Source: a virus
IMG/VR virus record: IMGVR_UViG_3300032278_000102
Location: 1 to 25,970 of that record
DNA: 25,970 bases
Reading direction: 5' to 3' (one strand)
Each line of letters starts with the position of its first letter. Position 1 is the first letter of the stretch. Shown piece by piece: positions 13,036-24,151 of this stretch. A program made the position numbers and the translations under genes. The notes beneath the pieces are model-generated. The model had not been told where the DNA came from and did no database searches. It worked only from the letters and a program-made list of their open reading frames with translations.

Positions 13036-13330
13036 ATTTACAGAAGAATTAGAACGATATGGTGTGCGAGCATCTGTGGGGTATCTCATCATAGACAAAG
13101 GCGCTGGCTTAATGAATCACCAAATCAACAGCGCAGAAGAAGCGGTTAATGCTATCATGGGAGGCAGATTTATCGTGGCTGAAAGAGACAACAACGGCCT
13201 GTGTATTGAAGACCCGCTGGATAACTATGAGGGTTTAGTAATCTATCACAAACCTGACTGCACGATGGTTGAGGTTCGTCCGAAGGTATTCATCATTTCT
13301 CGACTCGATGTAGTGGGGTGGGATGAGTGA
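13028..13330 (+). CDS. Protein of unknown function (100 aa)
   Basis: Preceded by ATAGGAAGGG. Predicted alternating strands and helices (SVGYLIIDKGAG, AVNAIMGGRFIVAERD, CTMVEVRPKVFIISR), a compact alpha/beta domain. No catalytic motif recognised. The stop overlaps the GTG of the chaperonin gene, so it is translated with it and could be a partner, but it does not resemble the GroES co-chaperonin. Confidence 0.55.
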   Translation: MTEFTEELERYGVRASVGYLIIDKGAGLMNHQINSAEEAVNAIMGGRFIVAERDNNGLCIEDPLDNYEGLVIYHKPDCTMVEVRPKVFIISRLDVVGWDE

Positions 13331-14802
13331 TTCGCACAGGTGAGGAGGCCAGGAAGGTTCTCCTAAATGGGATAAGGCAGGTGTCCGAAACAGTTAGTAG
13401 CACGCTGGGGCCGTATGCTTCAACAGCACTATTCAAAGCACCCAGCGGCAGACCCGTTGTGGTTGATGATGGAGTGTCTATCATCAGACAAATCAAACTC
13501 GATGACCCATTCGAGGAACTCGGTGCATCACTAATGCGTGAGGTTGCTGAAGAAGCACAGAAGGCATCCGGTGATGGAACGACCTCAGCTATGGTCATGG
13601 CTCTCGCTATGGCTCAAGAATCATTCAGACTTGTTCAAGAAGACTCAATCTATACGACACCTCGGAATCTAAAAACATTGCTCGACAGGGATTTGAAGAA
13701 GGCTCTATCCTTGTTGAGAGAAGGGGCTATCGAGGTCACGGATGACGACCTGGTCAGGGTAGCCACACTTTCTGCTAACGGGGATGAGGTCTTAGGCAAC
13801 ATTATAGCCGAGGCATTCATCTGTGTGGGTGAAGGAGGGACTGTCTTCGTGAAGGATGGCCTAAGAGAATCCCCCGAACTCGAACTCATCGAAGGGATGA
13901 AGGTTGAAGCAGGTGCTACTACACCTTATCTCCTGAAGGGCCAAAGGGAAATCAAACTCAATGATTGTCTGGTGGCTGTGACTGATGAGATGATAAACGA
14001 CTTCAGCGAGGTTGTTCAAGCATTGAATCATTCTGTGGAAACCAAGAGGCCAATAATTATATTCTGCACCGAGATAAGTCAAGCCGCATTGGATAATCTC
14101 ACCCTCAATGTGGTTCAGGGAAAGGTCAATGCTATGGTGGTGAAACTGCCTGGTATGGGTTCATCCACTCACCACACGGCTCAGGACATAGCCATACGAA
14201 CAGGTGCTACTTGCCTGTCTTCTGGTCTGGGAGAAAGAATCAAGGATATAGAATTGAATCAGCTGGGAGGTGCTGATGGGATATTTACTGAAACCAAGAC
14301 CGTCTTGACTCGCTCACCGCCAGAAACAGATGACGATGTTGCTTCTCGAGAAGAGGAATTGATTCATGAGATGGACTACGCTGAACATGAATGGGATAAG
14401 AAGGTTCTCCAGGGTAGGATTGCTAACCTCCGAGGAAGGGTAGCCACTATTACTGTGTGTGCCGACACAGATACTGAAACCATCGAAATGAAGACTCGCA
14501 TGGATGATGCGATAAATGCTACCAGGGCTGCCCTCAAGGGCGGTGTGATAGCAGGTGGTGGTATATCCCTATCAAGAGTGGCGGAACGCATTCCTGAAGG
14601 CATTATCCAAATGGGACTCGTTGCCGTTCAACAGACCCTGGCAAAGAACGCGGGTGTGTCTGTTGAGGAGTGGGGGTATAGTATGGCCGCATCTGATGAA
14701 GGTATCATTGACCCCCTCCTGGTAGTAGAGAACTCCGTGAAGACAGCGGCATCTATCGCTGGGTTGGTCTTGACGACAGACCTCTTAATCGTAGGGGAGT
14801 GA
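13327..14802 (+). CDS. groEL: Group I chaperonin (GroEL/HSP60-like)
   Basis: The 491-aa product aligns by motif along GroEL: residues 25-29 STLGP, 59-72 DDPFEELGASLMRE, the ATPase motif GDGTT at 82-86 (its Asp corresponds to GroEL D87), SANGDEVLGNII near 150, IEGMKVEAGATTPYLL at the apical entry, and the C-terminal intermediate part with DDAINATRAALKGG and AGGGISL. The Asp of DAINATRA corresponds to catalytic D398. The GroEL-type LGP/GDGTT pattern and apical motifs identify group I, not the archaeal thermosome. It is about 50 residues shorter than GroEL and ends soon after DLLIVGE, without a Gly-Gly-Met tail. GTG start, overlapping the upstream gene. No GroES gene is seen. It probably folds viral proteins in the host cytoplasm. 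Confidence 0.85.
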   Translation: MIRTGEEARKVLLNGIRQVSETVSSTLGPYASTALFKAPSGRPVVVDDGVSIIRQIKLDDPFEELGASLMREVAEEAQKASGDGTTSAMVMALAMAQESFRLVQEDSIYTTPRNLKTLLDRDLKKALSLLREGAIEVTDDDLVRVATLSANGDEVLGNIIAEAFICVGEGGTVFVKDGLRESPELELIEGMKVEAGATTPYLLKGQREIKLNDCLVAVTDEMINDFSEVVQALNHSVETKRPIIIFCTEISQAALDNLTLNVVQGKVNAMVVKLPGMGSSTHHTAQDIAIRTGATCLSSGLGERIKDIELNQLGGADGIFTETKTVLTRSPPETDDDVASREEELIHEMDYAEHEWDKKVLQGRIANLRGRVATITVCADTDTETIEMKTRMDDAINATRAALKGGVIAGGGISLSRVAERIPEGIIQMGLVAVQQTLAKNAGVSVEEWGYSMAASDEGIIDPLLVVENSVKTAASIAGLVLTTDLLIVGE

Positions 14803-16813: not shown

Positions 16814-16940
16814 TTGGGCTGGGTTTTGTAGGGCTTGCGGAAAATGGAGACACGCTGACCATGCACTATTCAATGCTCAAATATGCAGTTTTTGCGGGGC
16901 GAACCTGACTGATAAACCACCGAGGCGATTTGATGGTTAA
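16797..16940 (+). CDS. 47-aa zinc-ribbon protein
   Basis: ATG 16797 overlaps the end of the kinase gene by 17 nt. CRACGKWRHADH and CSFCGANL make a clean CxxC...CxxCG zinc ribbon 16 residues apart, and the tail is basic (KPPRRFDG). It overlaps the start of the RFC gene, so the three genes are probably co-translated. Function unknown. Confidence 0.6.
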   Translation: MLGLSDWAGFCRACGKWRHADHALFNAQICSFCGANLTDKPPRRFDG

Positions 16941-17832
16941 ACAACTGTGGGTCGAGAAATACAGACCGAAGGACATTGTTTCTGTGAAGGGGCAAGAGCA
17001 TATCACAAGTGAAATGAGGAGCGTTGTTGATAGTGGCTCCATGCAACACTACCTATTCTACTCCCCCGAACCTGGCACAGGCAAAACAAGCCTTGCTTAT
17101 GCAGTAGCTGCTGAACTCGACTATCAAGTGCATAGATTCAACGCCTCCTCCAAGCGACAACGAGGCATAGAATTTGTGGAGGAGGACGTGGCTCCCTTGT
17201 CGCGGTCAGGTCTGTGGGAAACCATTTTTCTTCTCGATGAGTCGGATAGGCTAACTACTGCGGCGCAAGATGCTCTTAAGGGAATCATCGAGGAAGCGAC
17301 GGGCTACTTCATACTCACCTGCAATGACCTATCCAAAGTTAGTCCCTGGCTCCAATCAAGATGCCAGGTCAGAACCTTCAAACCCATATCTAAGGAGGTA
17401 ATAATCGAGCAGGTATCACACATAGCCGCTATGGAGCAAGTGGATATTACTGAAGGAGATATACGGACGATAGCAGAATACCACGAAGGAGACCTCCGCA
17501 ACGCTATATCTGCTCTCCAAGCATACGCAACCCTCCCCAAAGACCAAGCCCAACAATTCCTCAGAAGCCTATTCATCAGCGACATAGACCACCAAAGATT
17601 CCTCGCCCTATGTTTCAGGGAGAAGGCCATAGAAGAAGCATACTCACTCCTTGACCCCACGCGGGCGCGGGGGTGCGTTAAATCTGTATTCACATTCGGC
17701 ATGGCTTCCCAGGCCTCGGATGATTCTAAGATGAAACTCATCCGGTCAGCCGTATTGACTGAAAGAGACCTCATTAACGGGGTGGAGCCAATCATAGCCC
17801 TTCACAATTTCTGCAAGGAGTTGAGCGCATGA
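16933..17832 (+). CDS. rfcS: Replication factor C small subunit (clamp loader)
   Basis: ATG 16933 is preferred over TTG 16930. The start LWVEKYRPKDI is the RFC N-terminal signature (RFC box). Walker A is PEPGTGKT at 45-52 (the usual first Gly is replaced by S44), Walker B FLLDESD at 99-105, sensor 1 at N131, the arginine finger SRC at 142-144 and sensor 2 HEGDLRNAI near 185. A C-terminal helical collar domain follows. At 299 aa it is close to archaeal RFC small subunits. It loads the PCNA-like clamp encoded at 20589. No RFC large subunit is seen, so the loader may be homomeric or use host RFC-L. Confidence 0.9.
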   Translation: MVKQLWVEKYRPKDIVSVKGQEHITSEMRSVVDSGSMQHYLFYSPEPGTGKTSLAYAVAAELDYQVHRFNASSKRQRGIEFVEEDVAPLSRSGLWETIFLLDESDRLTTAAQDALKGIIEEATGYFILTCNDLSKVSPWLQSRCQVRTFKPISKEVIIEQVSHIAAMEQVDITEGDIRTIAEYHEGDLRNAISALQAYATLPKDQAQQFLRSLFISDIDHQRFLALCFREKAIEEAYSLLDPTRARGCVKSVFTFGMASQASDDSKMKLIRSAVLTERDLINGVEPIIALHNFCKELSA

Positions 17833-20588: not shown

Positions 20589-21443
20589 ATGACGGCGATG
20601 GCTACGGACAATGGCTCACTACGAAGAACCTTAGAACTCACTCAGCGAAAGCAATCTATCGCTGGAAAAATGCAAGAGCAAGTGATGGCTTGTGTCTTGA
20701 GAGCAGCGAACGGGACTATATCAACCACTTCGCTGGTTCGTGACGGGAAGACCTCCCTGGCTCAATTCGTCTTTGATAAGTCTGATGATGAGTCGTCTGA
20801 ATCCACAATTTGCATCCCAGATATTAACCGTCTTCTCGGTGTGCTGGGAGCGCATGGAACGAAGGTCACACTAACTCCTGACGGAAACAAAATCCGCATT
20901 AAATCAGCCAACAAGCAAACCACCCTGACAGGTGACTTAGGCGGTTTGGCTTTCCCCCATTCAACTGAAACCATTGGTGAGTGGGAGGCTAAGTCGGTTG
21001 ATTTATCTACTCGTCTCAATGTCGAAGACGGCTCATATCAAATGGCCGATGGCTCAACTCGTGAGCCATTCTGTCGCTTCGTTGTAGAGGCGGTGGAACT
21101 CTTTGAAGCATTCAGATGCGACAACATCAACAACCAGAAACTCAACCGATACAAATTTAGAGTGGACGGTGACGGACTGTGGGTTGAGGTCGGTGATGAC
21201 CTCAAGGGACGAACAGTCGCTCAGCTATTATCTTTCGCAGAAGACGACCAAATCAGCACCAAGAACATAGGGTATGATGAGCACTGGGAGTGGGACTTTG
21301 AAGGGGGTCTGGAGAATGTGGTAAAGCCGTATTCAGGTGAATGCACATTATCTTTCTTGGACTTCAGACCTGAAGGACAAGGCATCAGACTTCTATTGGT
21401 TCTGCCTGGCGGCTCTTGGGTATTCCAGGCAGGTGTCCTGTGA
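20589..21443 (+). CDS. pcn: PCNA-like sliding clamp (putative)
   Basis: ATG with GAAGGAAGGC upstream. 284 aa of mainly beta structure with the two-fold repetition expected of a clamp subunit. The best-matching region is the C-terminal domain: a Tyr-Ser-Gly-Glu stretch, then TLSFLDFRPEGQGIRLLLVL and a final aromatic strand SWVFQAGVL, where cellular PCNA has a core strand and the LAP end. Sequence identity is low, so the call rests on length, beta-strand pattern and context (RFC, PolB and helicase nearby). It would encircle DNA and tether PolB. It is slightly longer than cellular PCNA (about 250 aa). The TGA overlaps the GTG of the methyltransferase gene. Confidence 0.55.
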   Translation: MTAMATDNGSLRRTLELTQRKQSIAGKMQEQVMACVLRAANGTISTTSLVRDGKTSLAQFVFDKSDDESSESTICIPDINRLLGVLGAHGTKVTLTPDGNKIRIKSANKQTTLTGDLGGLAFPHSTETIGEWEAKSVDLSTRLNVEDGSYQMADGSTREPFCRFVVEAVELFEAFRCDNINNQKLNRYKFRVDGDGLWVEVGDDLKGRTVAQLLSFAEDDQISTKNIGYDEHWEWDFEGGLENVVKPYSGECTLSFLDFRPEGQGIRLLLVLPGGSWVFQAGVL

Positions 21444-22573
21444 ATGTCTTATCTCTATGTTCCGGCATCGCTGGACTTGACCTCGGAGTCATGCTTGCAG
21501 AACCCTCATCCCGAATCGTGGGTTATGTTGAGGGGGAAGCCTTCGCAGCATCAGTCATTGTGTCGCAAATACAAGCGGGAGCCCTGGATGACGCGCCTAT
21601 CTGGTCTGATGTTCGCACCTTCGACGCTCGCCCCTATCGTGGAGTCGTGGATTGCATCACAGGCGGCTACCCATGCCAGCCATTCAGTCACGCCGGAAAG
21701 AGAAGAGGAGAAGATGACCCCAGACACCTGTGGCCCCACATCAGAAGAATCATCGAAGAAGTCAGACCTGAATGGTGCTTCTTTGAGAATGTCGAAGGAC
21801 ACCTCTCGCTCGGATTTGATGTGGTCGGACGAGAATTATCAGAAATTGGTTATTCAGTTAAGGCGGGATTATTCAGCGCGGCTGAAATCGGCTCAAGCCA
21901 TCAACGAAAAAGGCTCTTTATCTTGGCCCACTCCAACAGCAATGGACGGGCTGAGGGGCGGCAAAGCAGACGACCCGATAGATTGGAAAGCGAGGAGCAA
22001 AAGGAAAGCGGCGGAGGGAATCAACCTTCACAAACCGCTGAACATAGCCGCGAAGATATGGAGAACTCCTCAAGCGCGAGACCACAAGGGAGGCAAGCGG
22101 AAACAGGAAGGACGGGAAGACCGGCAACTCATGCTGACGGACCAAGCCCTCCACCGATGGCCGACTCCATGCGCGTTCGACACGATAGACAGGAAGGGAA
22201 TGCGTCCGAGCCGAGCGGCGACCAATCGAAAGTCAGGCTACTTGACGGAGGAGATAACGCGGTGGCCGACTCCGGTAGTGTCGAACGCTCACGGAGCGAT
22301 AGACCCGAACGCTCCATCGAACCGAGATGCCGTTGCGAAGGCTCGCCTGAACGGGGTGGCCCTCCAAGCGTCTTCCCACCTGGACCAGGTGGAGAATGGG
22401 GCGGAATCTGCGCAGACTTCTGGCCAGCCCTATCGGTTGAACGCAGCGTTTGTGGAGTGGCTGATGGGCTTACCAATAGAGTGGACCGGCTCAGGGCGCT
22501 CGGTAATGCCGTTCTCCCATTGGTTGCTGGCCATGCGTGGCTTACTCTTTTCGATGAAATCAACCGAGGTTGA
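21440..22573 (+). CDS. dcm: C5-cytosine DNA methyltransferase
   Basis: GTG 21440 starts inside the clamp gene's stop, with AGGTG 6 nt upstream; 377 aa. Motif I NVLSLCSGIAGLDLG at 2-16 (SAM binding), motif IV GGYPCQPFSHAG with catalytic C79, motif VI ENV at 116-118, motif VIII HQRKRLFIL at 154-162 and the final motif X VDRLRALGNAV are all present. Residues about 165-330, the target-recognition part, are very unusual: low-complexity R/S/G/E/P-rich, more like a disordered linker. This stretch overlaps the recognisable part of a second long frame in +1. It probably methylates cytosines in the viral genome to evade restriction; target unknown. Confidence 0.85.
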   Translation: MNVLSLCSGIAGLDLGVMLAEPSSRIVGYVEGEAFAASVIVSQIQAGALDDAPIWSDVRTFDARPYRGVVDCITGGYPCQPFSHAGKRRGEDDPRHLWPHIRRIIEEVRPEWCFFENVEGHLSLGFDVVGRELSEIGYSVKAGLFSAAEIGSSHQRKRLFILAHSNSNGRAEGRQSRRPDRLESEEQKESGGGNQPSQTAEHSREDMENSSSARPQGRQAETGRTGRPATHADGPSPPPMADSMRVRHDRQEGNASEPSGDQSKVRLLDGGDNAVADSGSVERSRSDRPERSIEPRCRCEGSPERGGPPSVFPPGPGGEWGGICADFWPALSVERSVCGVADGLTNRVDRLRALGNAVLPLVAGHAWLTLFDEINRG

Positions 22574-22583
22574 ATGGATATGA
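21444..22583 (+). CDS. Second long frame overlapping the methyltransferase, WPTP-repeat protein
   Basis: ATG 21444 lies 4 nt after the methyltransferase GTG and uses the same ribosome site. The frame stays open for 379 codons and stops 10 nt after the methyltransferase. It has its own motifs: WPTP or WRTP at residues 161, 206, 239 and 274, each followed closely by a conserved Asp or Ala, and FVEWLMGLPIEWT at about 336-348. These WPTP and EWLMGxPxxWT motifs, and the beginning YLYVPASLDL with WRTP further on, are familiar from many phage and prophage proteins annotated as hypothetical or methyltransferase. It might supply a target-recognition region, be a separate protein, or be a passive echo of the other frame. 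Which frame is under selection is unproven. Confidence 0.55.
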   Translation: MSYLYVPASLDLTSESCLQNPHPESWVMLRGKPSQHQSLCRKYKREPWMTRLSGLMFAPSTLAPIVESWIASQAATHASHSVTPEREEEKMTPDTCGPTSEESSKKSDLNGASLRMSKDTSRSDLMWSDENYQKLVIQLRRDYSARLKSAQAINEKGSLSWPTPTAMDGLRGGKADDPIDWKARSKRKAAEGINLHKPLNIAAKIWRTPQARDHKGGKRKQEGREDRQLMLTDQALHRWPTPCAFDTIDRKGMRPSRAATNRKSGYLTEEITRWPTPVVSNAHGAIDPNAPSNRDAVAKARLNGVALQASSHLDQVENGAESAQTSGQPYRLNAAFVEWLMGLPIEWTGSGRSVMPFSHWLLAMRGLLFSMKSTEVEWI

Positions 22584-22714: not shown

Positions 22715-23010
22715 TGCCGACAGGTTCAGAAGAGGACTTGCAAGGACGAGGCGACAAGAAGATGTTCGCTAAGACTCACAAGAATAACAGAATGAGGATT
22801 GCTATTTACGAAATCATGCGGGACAGACCTGGTTATGAGTGGCGGGCTGTTGAAGTAAGGGAGGCCCTCTTTGACCATTCTAATTGGTGCAGAAGAGCCC
22901 TGGGCAGCACACAACAAGTCGTGGGTATCATGTTGAGGGCTCCAGGTGTAGAAAGACTCTATGTTGCTCGCAACAATACCAAGTGGAGGTTGTTCGATGA
23001 GTTCAAATGA
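22708..23010 (+). CDS. Winged-helix DNA-binding protein (100 aa)
   Basis: ATG 22708 has GAGGTGA 5 nt upstream; ATG 22762 is an alternative. Helix 1 (RMRIAIYEIMRDRPG), a helix-turn-helix (EWRAVEVREAL, then ALGSTQQVVGIMLRAPGV) and a wing (RLYVARNNTKWRLF). It has the same order and ending as the protein at 8663 (GV...YVVWKF), so the two are probably paralogues. It lies between the methyltransferase and acyltransferase genes and may regulate them. Confidence 0.6.
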   Translation: MVMPTGSEEDLQGRGDKKMFAKTHKNNRMRIAIYEIMRDRPGYEWRAVEVREALFDHSNWCRRALGSTQQVVGIMLRAPGVERLYVARNNTKWRLFDEFK

Positions 23011-24151
23011 GATTATTTTGGAAACAGACGTCATCCACGACGAATACACAGCGATTGCTGAAAAGATGTTCGATGTTCCCCTTGAGGTGAGGATGAGAAC
23101 AACCATCATCAATAACATTCGCTTGCCTGAGGAGTGGTCAATAGGTGCTATCTATGGCTCGTCAGGAGCAGGTAAAACTACTCTATTGAAAACCTTTGGC
23201 GAGATATACCATCACGAGTGGGGTCAGGGACAAGCGATTATCTCATCCATAGGTAGCATAGGGCTGACCCCAGAAGAAGCGGGAAGTATTCTCTCGGCGG
23301 TTGGTCTGTCTTCTGTGCCGTCATGGTGCAGACCATTCAATACTCTCTCTAATGGTGAGCAATTCAGGGCTAACCTTGCCGCCGCTGTTGCTCACGGAAA
23401 AGTAAATGGTGGCCTCATTCTCATAGATGAATTTACCTCAGTAGTAGATAGAAATGTGGCGAAGGCCGCCTCTTCTGCACTGCAAAAATTCATCCGAAAG
23501 TCAGACGCAAAGGTTATCGTAGCCTCCTGCCATGACGATATTCTCGAATGGCTGAATGCCGATTGGGTCTATAATCCCCTCGATGGGAAAACAGTAATAA
23601 ACGAGACCAGGGGGTGGTCTTTTCATAGACCACAGATTGAACTCAAGATATTCCGAGCGCAATATGAGGCGTGGGACTTGTTCAAAGAGCATCACTATTT
23701 GACCAAAGACCTCAATAAGGCTGCTCGAATTTTCATAGCCACATGGGACGACAGGCCGGTTGCTATATCCTGCACTCTACCATTCCCTAATGGAGGTATT
23801 CAGAACGGTTGGCGGGCGAGCCGGACTGTGGTTTTGCCTGACTATCAAGGGTTGGGTATAGGAGTGAAATTGTCTGACTTCATAGGCTCGATGGTGCTGG
23901 CTAACAATGGTCGGTATTTCAGCCGACACGCTCACTTCGCATTCGCCAAACACAGATTCAACAATCCTAACTGGAAAGAGACAGCGGTGTCCCGTAAGGT
24001 GCATACTCACCCAGGGAATGAGGAGTGGGGTTGGAAACAGAACCTCCGTGAATGCTATTCATTTGAGTTTGTAGGTGAACCAGCACCACCGGAAGTAGCT
24101 GAGCTATTCTGGAATTGGAAGATAGATACTGGAGGAGTAGAATGGGTTTGA
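22997..24151 (+). CDS. ABC-type ATPase fused to a GNAT acetyltransferase-like domain
   Basis: ATG 22997 has GGAGG 6 nt upstream and overlaps the previous gene; 384 aa. The N-terminal ABC ATPase has Walker A GSSGAGKT at 54-61, signature LSNGE at 117-121 and Walker B LILIDE at 140-145, with no transmembrane helices. The C-terminal half (about 210-370) has a GNAT fold with VVLPDYQGLGIGVKLSDFIG, the acetyl-CoA binding loop. This is the layout of the ABC-ATPase/acetyltransferase fusion family COG2401, found in phages and archaea. Its role is unproven; DNA base modification or an antirestriction function has been suggested for related GNAT systems. The next gene overlaps it. Confidence 0.75.
   Translation: MSSNEIILETDVIHDEYTAIAEKMFDVPLEVRMRTTIINNIRLPEEWSIGAIYGSSGAGKTTLLKTFGEIYHHEWGQGQAIISSIGSIGLTPEEAGSILSAVGLSSVPSWCRPFNTLSNGEQFRANLAAAVAHGKVNGGLILIDEFTSVVDRNVAKAASSALQKFIRKSDAKVIVASCHDDILEWLNADWVYNPLDGKTVINETRGWSFHRPQIELKIFRAQYEAWDLFKEHHYLTKDLNKAARIFIATWDDRPVAISCTLPFPNGGIQNGWRASRTVVLPDYQGLGIGVKLSDFIGSMVLANNGRYFSRHAHFAFAKHRFNNPNWKETAVSRKVHTHPGNEEWGWKQNLRECYSFEFVGEPAPPEVAELFWNWKIDTGGVEWV

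Follow-up and report, generated by a model that had tools for sequence, protein, structure and literature searches.

Two almost fully overlapping reading frames in a viral genome record probably encode the two chains of one C5-cytosine methyltransferase

Long conserved genes that overlap almost wholly on the same strand are rare in prokaryotes and the viruses that infect them, and they are usually read as overprinting of unrelated proteins. The window analysed here, a viral record of 25,970 bases, contains two overlapping same-strand frames near 21440-22583, the first of which (frame 1, alpha) has the motifs of a C5-cytosine methyltransferase. This raises the question of what the second frame (frame 2, beta) is: a passive shadow of the first, an independent protein, a stretch reached by frameshifting, or a part of the same enzyme. 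We favour the last of these, with a probability of roughly 0.8: the locus would encode one C5-cytosine methyltransferase as two full-length chains, alpha for catalysis and beta for specificity. As the two frames seem to be complementary halves of one enzyme, the persistence of overlaps becomes testable.

Locus layout and paired starts

The original prediction had described a GTG-initiated frame at 21440 and an ATG-initiated frame at 21444, and its coordinates proved correct (Table 1). The starts lie 4 nt apart and the stops 10 nt apart, so that the overlap is nearly complete at ~1.14 kb. A single ribosome site had been proposed for both frames, and a stretch resembling AGGCAGGTG is indeed found upstream of the two starts. 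The alpha GTG overlaps the TGA stop (21441-21443) of the upstream ORF 20589-21443, and the beta ATG follows directly after that stop.

Table 1. Positions of the two overlapping frames and their features in the window
Feature	Position	Strand	Basis or remark
Shine-Dalgarno-like AGGCAGGTG	21427..21435	+	read from sequence; probably common to both starts
Paired start GTGAATG	21440..21446	+	sequence
Alpha ORF, frame 1	21440..22573	+	GTG start, 377 aa; C5-cytosine methyltransferase motifs I-VIII and X; between VIII and X, a spacer replaces the recognition domain
Alpha motif I, VLSLCSGIAGLDLG	21446..21487	+	sequence, alignment
Alpha motif IV, GGYPCQPFS (catalytic Cys)	21662..21688	+	Cys invariant in 70 relatives
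Alpha motif VI, FFENVEG	21779..21799	+	sequence, alignment
Alpha motif VIII, SSHQRKRLFILA	21893..21928	+	end overlaps start of beta module 1; alignment
Alpha spacer	21932..22474	+	same DNA as beta modules; neutral in relatives, predicted disordered
Alpha motif X, NRVDRLRALGNAVLPLVAGHAW	22475..22540	+	overlaps end of beta motif IX; frame-1 constraint resumes there in relatives
Beta ORF, frame 2 (alpha frame +1)	21444..22583	+	ATG start, 379 aa; leader, four modules, motif IX
Beta N-terminal signature MSYLYVP	21444..21464	+	family consensus M[TS]WLY[VIL]P
Beta candidate recognition module 1, WPTP, 45 aa	21924..22058	+	
Beta candidate recognition module 2, WRTP, 33 aa	22059..22157	+	
Beta candidate recognition module 3, WPTP, 35 aa	22158..22262	+	
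Beta candidate recognition module 4, WPTP, plus linker to motif IX	22263..22436	+	
Beta motif IX, LNAAFVEWLMGLPIEWT	22437..22487	+	profile-aligned to in-frame motif IX of the Mycobacterium phage WillSterrel single-frame enzyme

Paired starts recur among relatives. In 102 of the 104 relatives with a beta N-terminal signature, the alpha and beta starts are at most 5 nt apart (+2, -4 or +5), frequent forms being ATGCATGACC, GTGTGGCTCT and ATGTGG. In a minority of loci (L138, L147, L151, L223 and L227) the beta frame opens within alpha. Three of these betas (L151, L223 and L227) open just 5' of alpha motif IV, all near the sequence QLTLF, which is the frame-2 shadow of that motif; the beta of M.EcoHK31I also opens within alpha. 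The QLTLFPE of internal-start betas was considered as a clamp-binding motif and dropped, as it is the same shadow of motif IV.

Both frames are held open in viral and bacterial relatives

The simplest account of frame 2 is a passive shadow, open merely through composition, codon use or DNA-level repeats. The window sequence lends this some plausibility, as its base composition is moderately GC-rich and the W-P-T-P and (L/A/D)-S motifs of the two frames partly force each other through the DNA that they share. We therefore shuffled the synonymous codons of frame 1, with the protein and the codon counts fixed. The longest open stretch of frame 2 in the window spans 375 codons, compared to a mean of 143 in 500 shuffles, none of which reached 375. 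Beyond codon 160, frame 2 has no stops where the shuffles predict 3.5. The earlier estimate that the openness of frame 2 goes beyond chance is thus borne out.

Viral relatives were fetched by their alpha, first 54 and then 80 more out of at least 594 matching. From codon 4 to codon 160, frame 2 has a single stop versus 262 expected in 116 non-redundant full-length viral loci found by alpha, and is open in 115 of them; the homologues share kinship, and these counts are thus not independent draws. Downstream of codon 160, the same loci contain 24 frame-2 stops versus 147 expected. Frame 3 has 510 stops versus 639 expected in the first of these regions and 852 versus 820 in the second. Frame-2 stops in 145 neighbouring control ORFs are at expectation (1526 versus 1520), and a general bias therefore does not explain the openness of frame 2. 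Viral relatives of the gene number in the hundreds, and nearly all that were checked keep both frames open.

The converse question was addressed with 80 bacterial loci found by beta alone, through a scan of bacterial and archaeal genomes with a six-row beta alignment. This set was confirmed with full betas, so it leans towards overlapped loci, although several loci matched only in the module part. In all 80, beta is overlapped by the N-terminal motifs of alpha, and the relation of the frames is each time beta = alpha + 1; a motif IX with no alpha in the other frame was found in none of the 80. Between motifs VIII and IX, the alpha frame of 79 bacterial loci contains 14 stops, compared to 219 expected when the beta codons are shuffled, and it is fully open in 75 of the 79 (11 expected). 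Three bacterial loci (L189, L194 and L203) have an open beta but four to five alpha-frame stops across the modules; these are possibly broken copies.

Motifs and models of the two chains

Alpha matches PF00145 (3.6e-34) over residues 2-217 only, and it also matches phrog_363. It contains motifs I, IV (PCQ), VI (ENV), VIII and X of this family in order, whereas motif IX and a recognition domain are absent from the chain; motif IX and the candidate recognition modules are in beta. Judged by these motifs, methyltransferase function would need both the alpha and the beta chain. An AlphaFold model of alpha has pLDDT values mostly above 84 for residues 1-170 and above 90 for a C-terminal helix region (about 361-377), but of about 40-57 over residues 171-340. 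Its best match among solved structures is M.HhaI (2i9k; Z 22.0, 212 of 327 residues aligned, rmsd 3.6).

Beta has no match in Pfam; its match is to phrog_1008 (5.5e-29), which is a family of phage proteins with the label DNA methyltransferase. The same profile is matched by 66 of 67 betas; the annotation of phrog_1008, however, contains no hint that its members overlap alphas of the phrog_363 type in another frame. Both readings had been described as annotated phage protein families and an HMM search of both proteins had been proposed; the searches place frame 1 in PF00145/phrog_363 and frame 2 in phrog_1008. We also found in frame 2 the predicted four W-x-T-P repeats followed by FVEWLMGLPIEWT. 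The repeated 11-mer noted earlier is present once as TGGCCCACTCC, twice as TGGCCGACTCC and once as a divergent copy, TGGAGAACTCC, and it sits at module boundaries.

The two frames differ in which relatives they find across the recognition stretch. With motif IX left out, this stretch of the window beta has relatives in 58 of 126 loci (E < 1e-3), in the beta frame only, whereas the alpha spacer of the window has no relative at E < 0.05 in the alpha frame of the 126 loci. Sequence searches with beta gave little. Viral contigs scanned with the beta sequence of the window returned no match, and tblastn searches of plasmids and phages for a beta returned few, because the beta sequence diverges too fast. 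The structure model of beta alone is poor (pLDDT 58, pTM 0.28). When its profile was compared with solved chains, beta hit nothing but the MS2 coat protein, at chance level, and a Foldseek search of the model against solved structures listed nothing.

Constraint alternates between the two frames along the gene

To see which frame is under selection along the gene, we compared 31 independent close pairs of relatives, with figures alike for the long and the short type. In the long type, the rates of change at frame-1 codon positions 1, 2 and 3 are.057/.035/.162 for the N-terminal part,.228/.086/.106 for the recognition stretch that runs from motif VIII to motif IX, and.092/.030/.144 for the C-terminal part. 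Change in the recognition stretch is fastest at frame-1 position 1, which is position 3 of frame 2, and the middle part therefore evolves as frame-2 coding DNA.

Frame-specific dN/dS, for which changes were counted by their effect in both frames, agrees with these rates. For frame 1, dN/dS is 0.24 in the N-terminal part, 1.02 in the recognition stretch (dNN/dSN) and 0.24 in the C-terminal part; for frame 2, it is 0.79, 0.39 and 0.46, respectively, compared to 0.72 for unused frames in control genes. The window has no close relative, and these values apply to its locus by way of its relatives. By these values, the stretch that is constrained in beta is neutral in alpha, and the first 160 codons of beta are little constrained beyond their openness. 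The handover of constraint between frames that the original prediction had proposed, with dN/dS per frame as its check, is thus seen in both measures. It does not end with frame 2: from motif X on, frame 1 is again the constrained one, a return that had not been foreseen.

These rates also speak against the passive shadow, which predicts neither that frame-2 third positions change fastest in the recognition stretch nor a frame-2 dN/dS of 0.39 against 0.72 for unused frames. Normal synonymous change, with stops in homologues, had been named as the outcome that would reduce one frame to a shadow of the other, and frame 2 does not behave in this way. Together with the synonymous shuffles and the neighbouring genes, which contradict it as well, this makes the passive shadow hardly credible.

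Constraint changes frame for the first time immediately behind motif VIII and for the second time at the junction of motifs IX and X, so the constrained segments follow the exact order of an ordinary single-chain C5-methyltransferase. This order invites another explanation, in which two programmed frameshifts yield one chain that is read in frame 1 to motif VIII, in the +1 frame for the modules and motif IX, and in frame 1 again for motif X. Single-frame versions of the enzyme in actinophages, described below, fit this explanation too. A double frameshift would, however, require neither an open beta frame over the first 160 codons (1 versus 262 stops) nor an open alpha frame across the modules (14 versus 219 stops), and it would need no pairing of the starts and no conserved N-terminus in beta. 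A shift site would be expected to suppress synonymous change; at the first handover, no such suppression and no conserved shift site are seen. The second handover is less telling, as motifs IX and X overlap there and each constrains the other regardless of any shift site. We consider the double frameshift unlikely. The original prediction had named both two proteins and a frameshifted enzyme; the open frames and the paired starts favour the former, while no conserved shift site that would fit the latter is seen at the first handover.

Single-frame relatives in actinophages

The enzyme gp71 of Mycobacterium phage WillSterrel has motifs I-VIII, L-P-T-P modules, motif IX and motif X in one chain. 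The beta profile aligns to it along the L-P-T-P modules and on to the end of motif IX (hhalign, 97.1%, E 6.5e-11). Gordonia phages Gudmit, CheeseTouch, Neville and SchottB have single-frame methylases as well. These actinophage enzymes and the locus described here have motifs IX and X in common, as well as the catalytic part, and WillSterrel and Gudmit also share the L-P-T-P modules, but they hold I-VIII, IX and X all in one frame.

Single-frame enzymes with these parts bear on a further alternative, overprinting, in which beta would be an independent protein of unrelated function (e.g., anti-restriction) that overlaps the methyltransferase by chance. Beta forms an annotated family of its own and has a start codon to itself, which would suit such a protein, as would modules that match no solved structure. 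It would leave unexplained, however, why alpha lacks motif IX and a constrained recognition domain where beta has them, why beta modules and motif IX are found inside single-frame methyltransferases, and why alpha is present at each of the bacterial loci found by beta (80/80). We regard overprinting as very improbable.

Further variants were seen among the relatives. In two Gordonia phage loci (L140 and L149), the modules are in frame 2 until a stop and motif IX is in frame 1; by their sequence, these appear to be intermediate between the split and the single-frame forms. In L044, L046 and L115, the W-x-T-P part is in the frame of the N-terminal catalytic part, and the C-terminal part of alpha is lost, shifted or unseen. 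These three may be frame-swapped forms or degraded copies.

A split enzyme with exchangeable modules

In the two-chain reading, alpha would be the source of the large domain and its catalysis, through motifs I-VIII and X, and its unconstrained stretch between VIII and X would be a probably disordered spacer. Beta would supply specificity through an open leader, tandem W-x-T-P modules in the place of target recognition, and motif IX. Both chains would start at the paired start codons behind one ribosome-binding region, which would give one message for both subunits and could allow assembly during synthesis. Both frames would be translated, and the chains would form a heterodimer in which the modules recognise DNA; the enzyme may serve to protect the viral DNA from host restriction. 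Several findings count against this reading. The poor beta model and the lack of a solved match give no structural support to the modules as a recognition domain, and three bacterial loci have broken alpha frames. The first 160 residues of beta are, moreover, nearly without amino-acid constraint, which is odd for a protein of 379 aa. This leader may be demanded by the paired start, as the price of equal synthesis of both chains.

Most betas have one to six W/L/F/M-x-T-P modules, with four in the window and none by the strict pattern in a few. Among relatives whose DNA diverges by 7-8%, blocks of 28, 35 or 63 residues starting at W-x-T-P have been cleanly gained or lost. The loci L014 and L047 share one module that is 89% identical in protein and 76% in DNA, with changes mostly at beta third positions, although their alpha N-termini are only 40% identical. 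The putative recognition part is thus movable, as had been suspected, with whole modules gained or lost among close relatives and held in common by distant alphas. Gain, loss and exchange of modules would alter target specificity and leave the catalytic part as it is, as long as the new module is open in both frames.

In multispecific Bacillus phage C5-methyltransferases, a number of short recognition units follow one another in the region from motif VIII to motif IX. Beta is like them in its serial units between VIII and IX, of which the window has four modules; they are, however, single-chain and single-frame enzymes, and the multispecificity of the window modules is only putative. This precedent, the place between VIII and IX and the variability of the modules together suggest that the middle of beta is the recognition part, and the alignment of its profile to the WillSterrel enzyme agrees with this. 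Multispecific enzymes of this kind are those of the Bacillus phages SPR, phi3T, rho11 and H2 (PMC8936443). If the modules do set specificity, they represent a library supplied by nature with which the cytosine methylation of a heterodimer could be reprogrammed.

A wider proposal, to which we give even odds, is that these loci form an unrecognised large class of viral and prophage enzymes. Such an enzyme would be written twice over the same DNA; either full-length chain would contain one functional half, with the DNA of the other half serving as neutral filler that needs only to be open, and the dual-open specificity modules would circulate between genes as a shared cassette pool for new methylation targets.

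Comparison with known split and hidden genes

In M.EcoHK31I, beta is read from another frame within the alpha gene, as a small subunit of 176 aa with an internal start. That subunit is short, whereas beta here overlaps alpha almost wholly from a paired start. M.EcoHK31I and M.AquI are the two known natural C5-methyltransferases made of two polypeptides (PMC3404938). The large subunit of M.EcoHK31I (YGGCCR) contains motifs I-VIII and X and the small subunit contains motif IX (PMC3404938), and compared to that description, I-VIII and X are here in alpha and motif IX in the second chain too. The recognition domain of M.EcoHK31I, on the other hand, has been published as part of its large subunit, whereas here the modules and motif IX are in beta. 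As the recognition stretch of alpha is neutral (1.02) and that of beta constrained (0.39) in relatives, we do not class the locus as the same arrangement, although it would work in a similar way. M.AquI is likewise one enzyme in two chains, cut near the variable region, but both IX and X are in its second chain, while X is in alpha here.

Another phage methylase gene with a second protein hidden out of frame is that of the ShiLan element, in which an HNH homing endonuclease is inserted out of frame (PMC11855218). The hidden protein is in that case an inserted endonuclease and not a part of the methylase. Beta as an insertion element like that of ShiLan was dropped, as there are methyltransferases that contain beta modules and motif IX in their own frame. 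We found no earlier description of a full-length dual-frame phage methyltransferase in the literature searched, which took in few subscription papers.

Annotation and neighbouring genes

One of the two frames is usually left unannotated, and public annotation is inconsistent as to which. Synechococcus phage Ssp-JY39 and Acidovorax phage Alfacinha3 have an annotation for beta only, and phage C75C1 and Microcystis phage Mae-JY24 for alpha only. Both frames are annotated in Xanthomonas phage PhiXhv-28 (L141:782-1774 and 864-1769), each as DNA methyltransferase. The families phrog_363 and phrog_1008, both labelled 'DNA methyltransferase', are two readings of one locus; the two-chain reading would explain both this pair of families and the variation in the annotated frame.

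Elsewhere in the window are genes for a group II-type chaperonin (13327-14802; TCP-1/cpn60, 1.7e-39) and a clamp-loader ATPase (16930-17832), which together suggest a virus of archaea. An ArdC-like anti-restriction protein is encoded at 587-1585. Another ORF among the relatives, L014:6401-7228, has no stops in its +1 frame where about four are expected, and it is possibly a second overlap or a case of the wrong frame being called. Downstream of the methyltransferase locus, the ORF at 22961-24151 fuses an ABC-type ATPase part and a GNAT-like part, and strongly matches phrog_11143.
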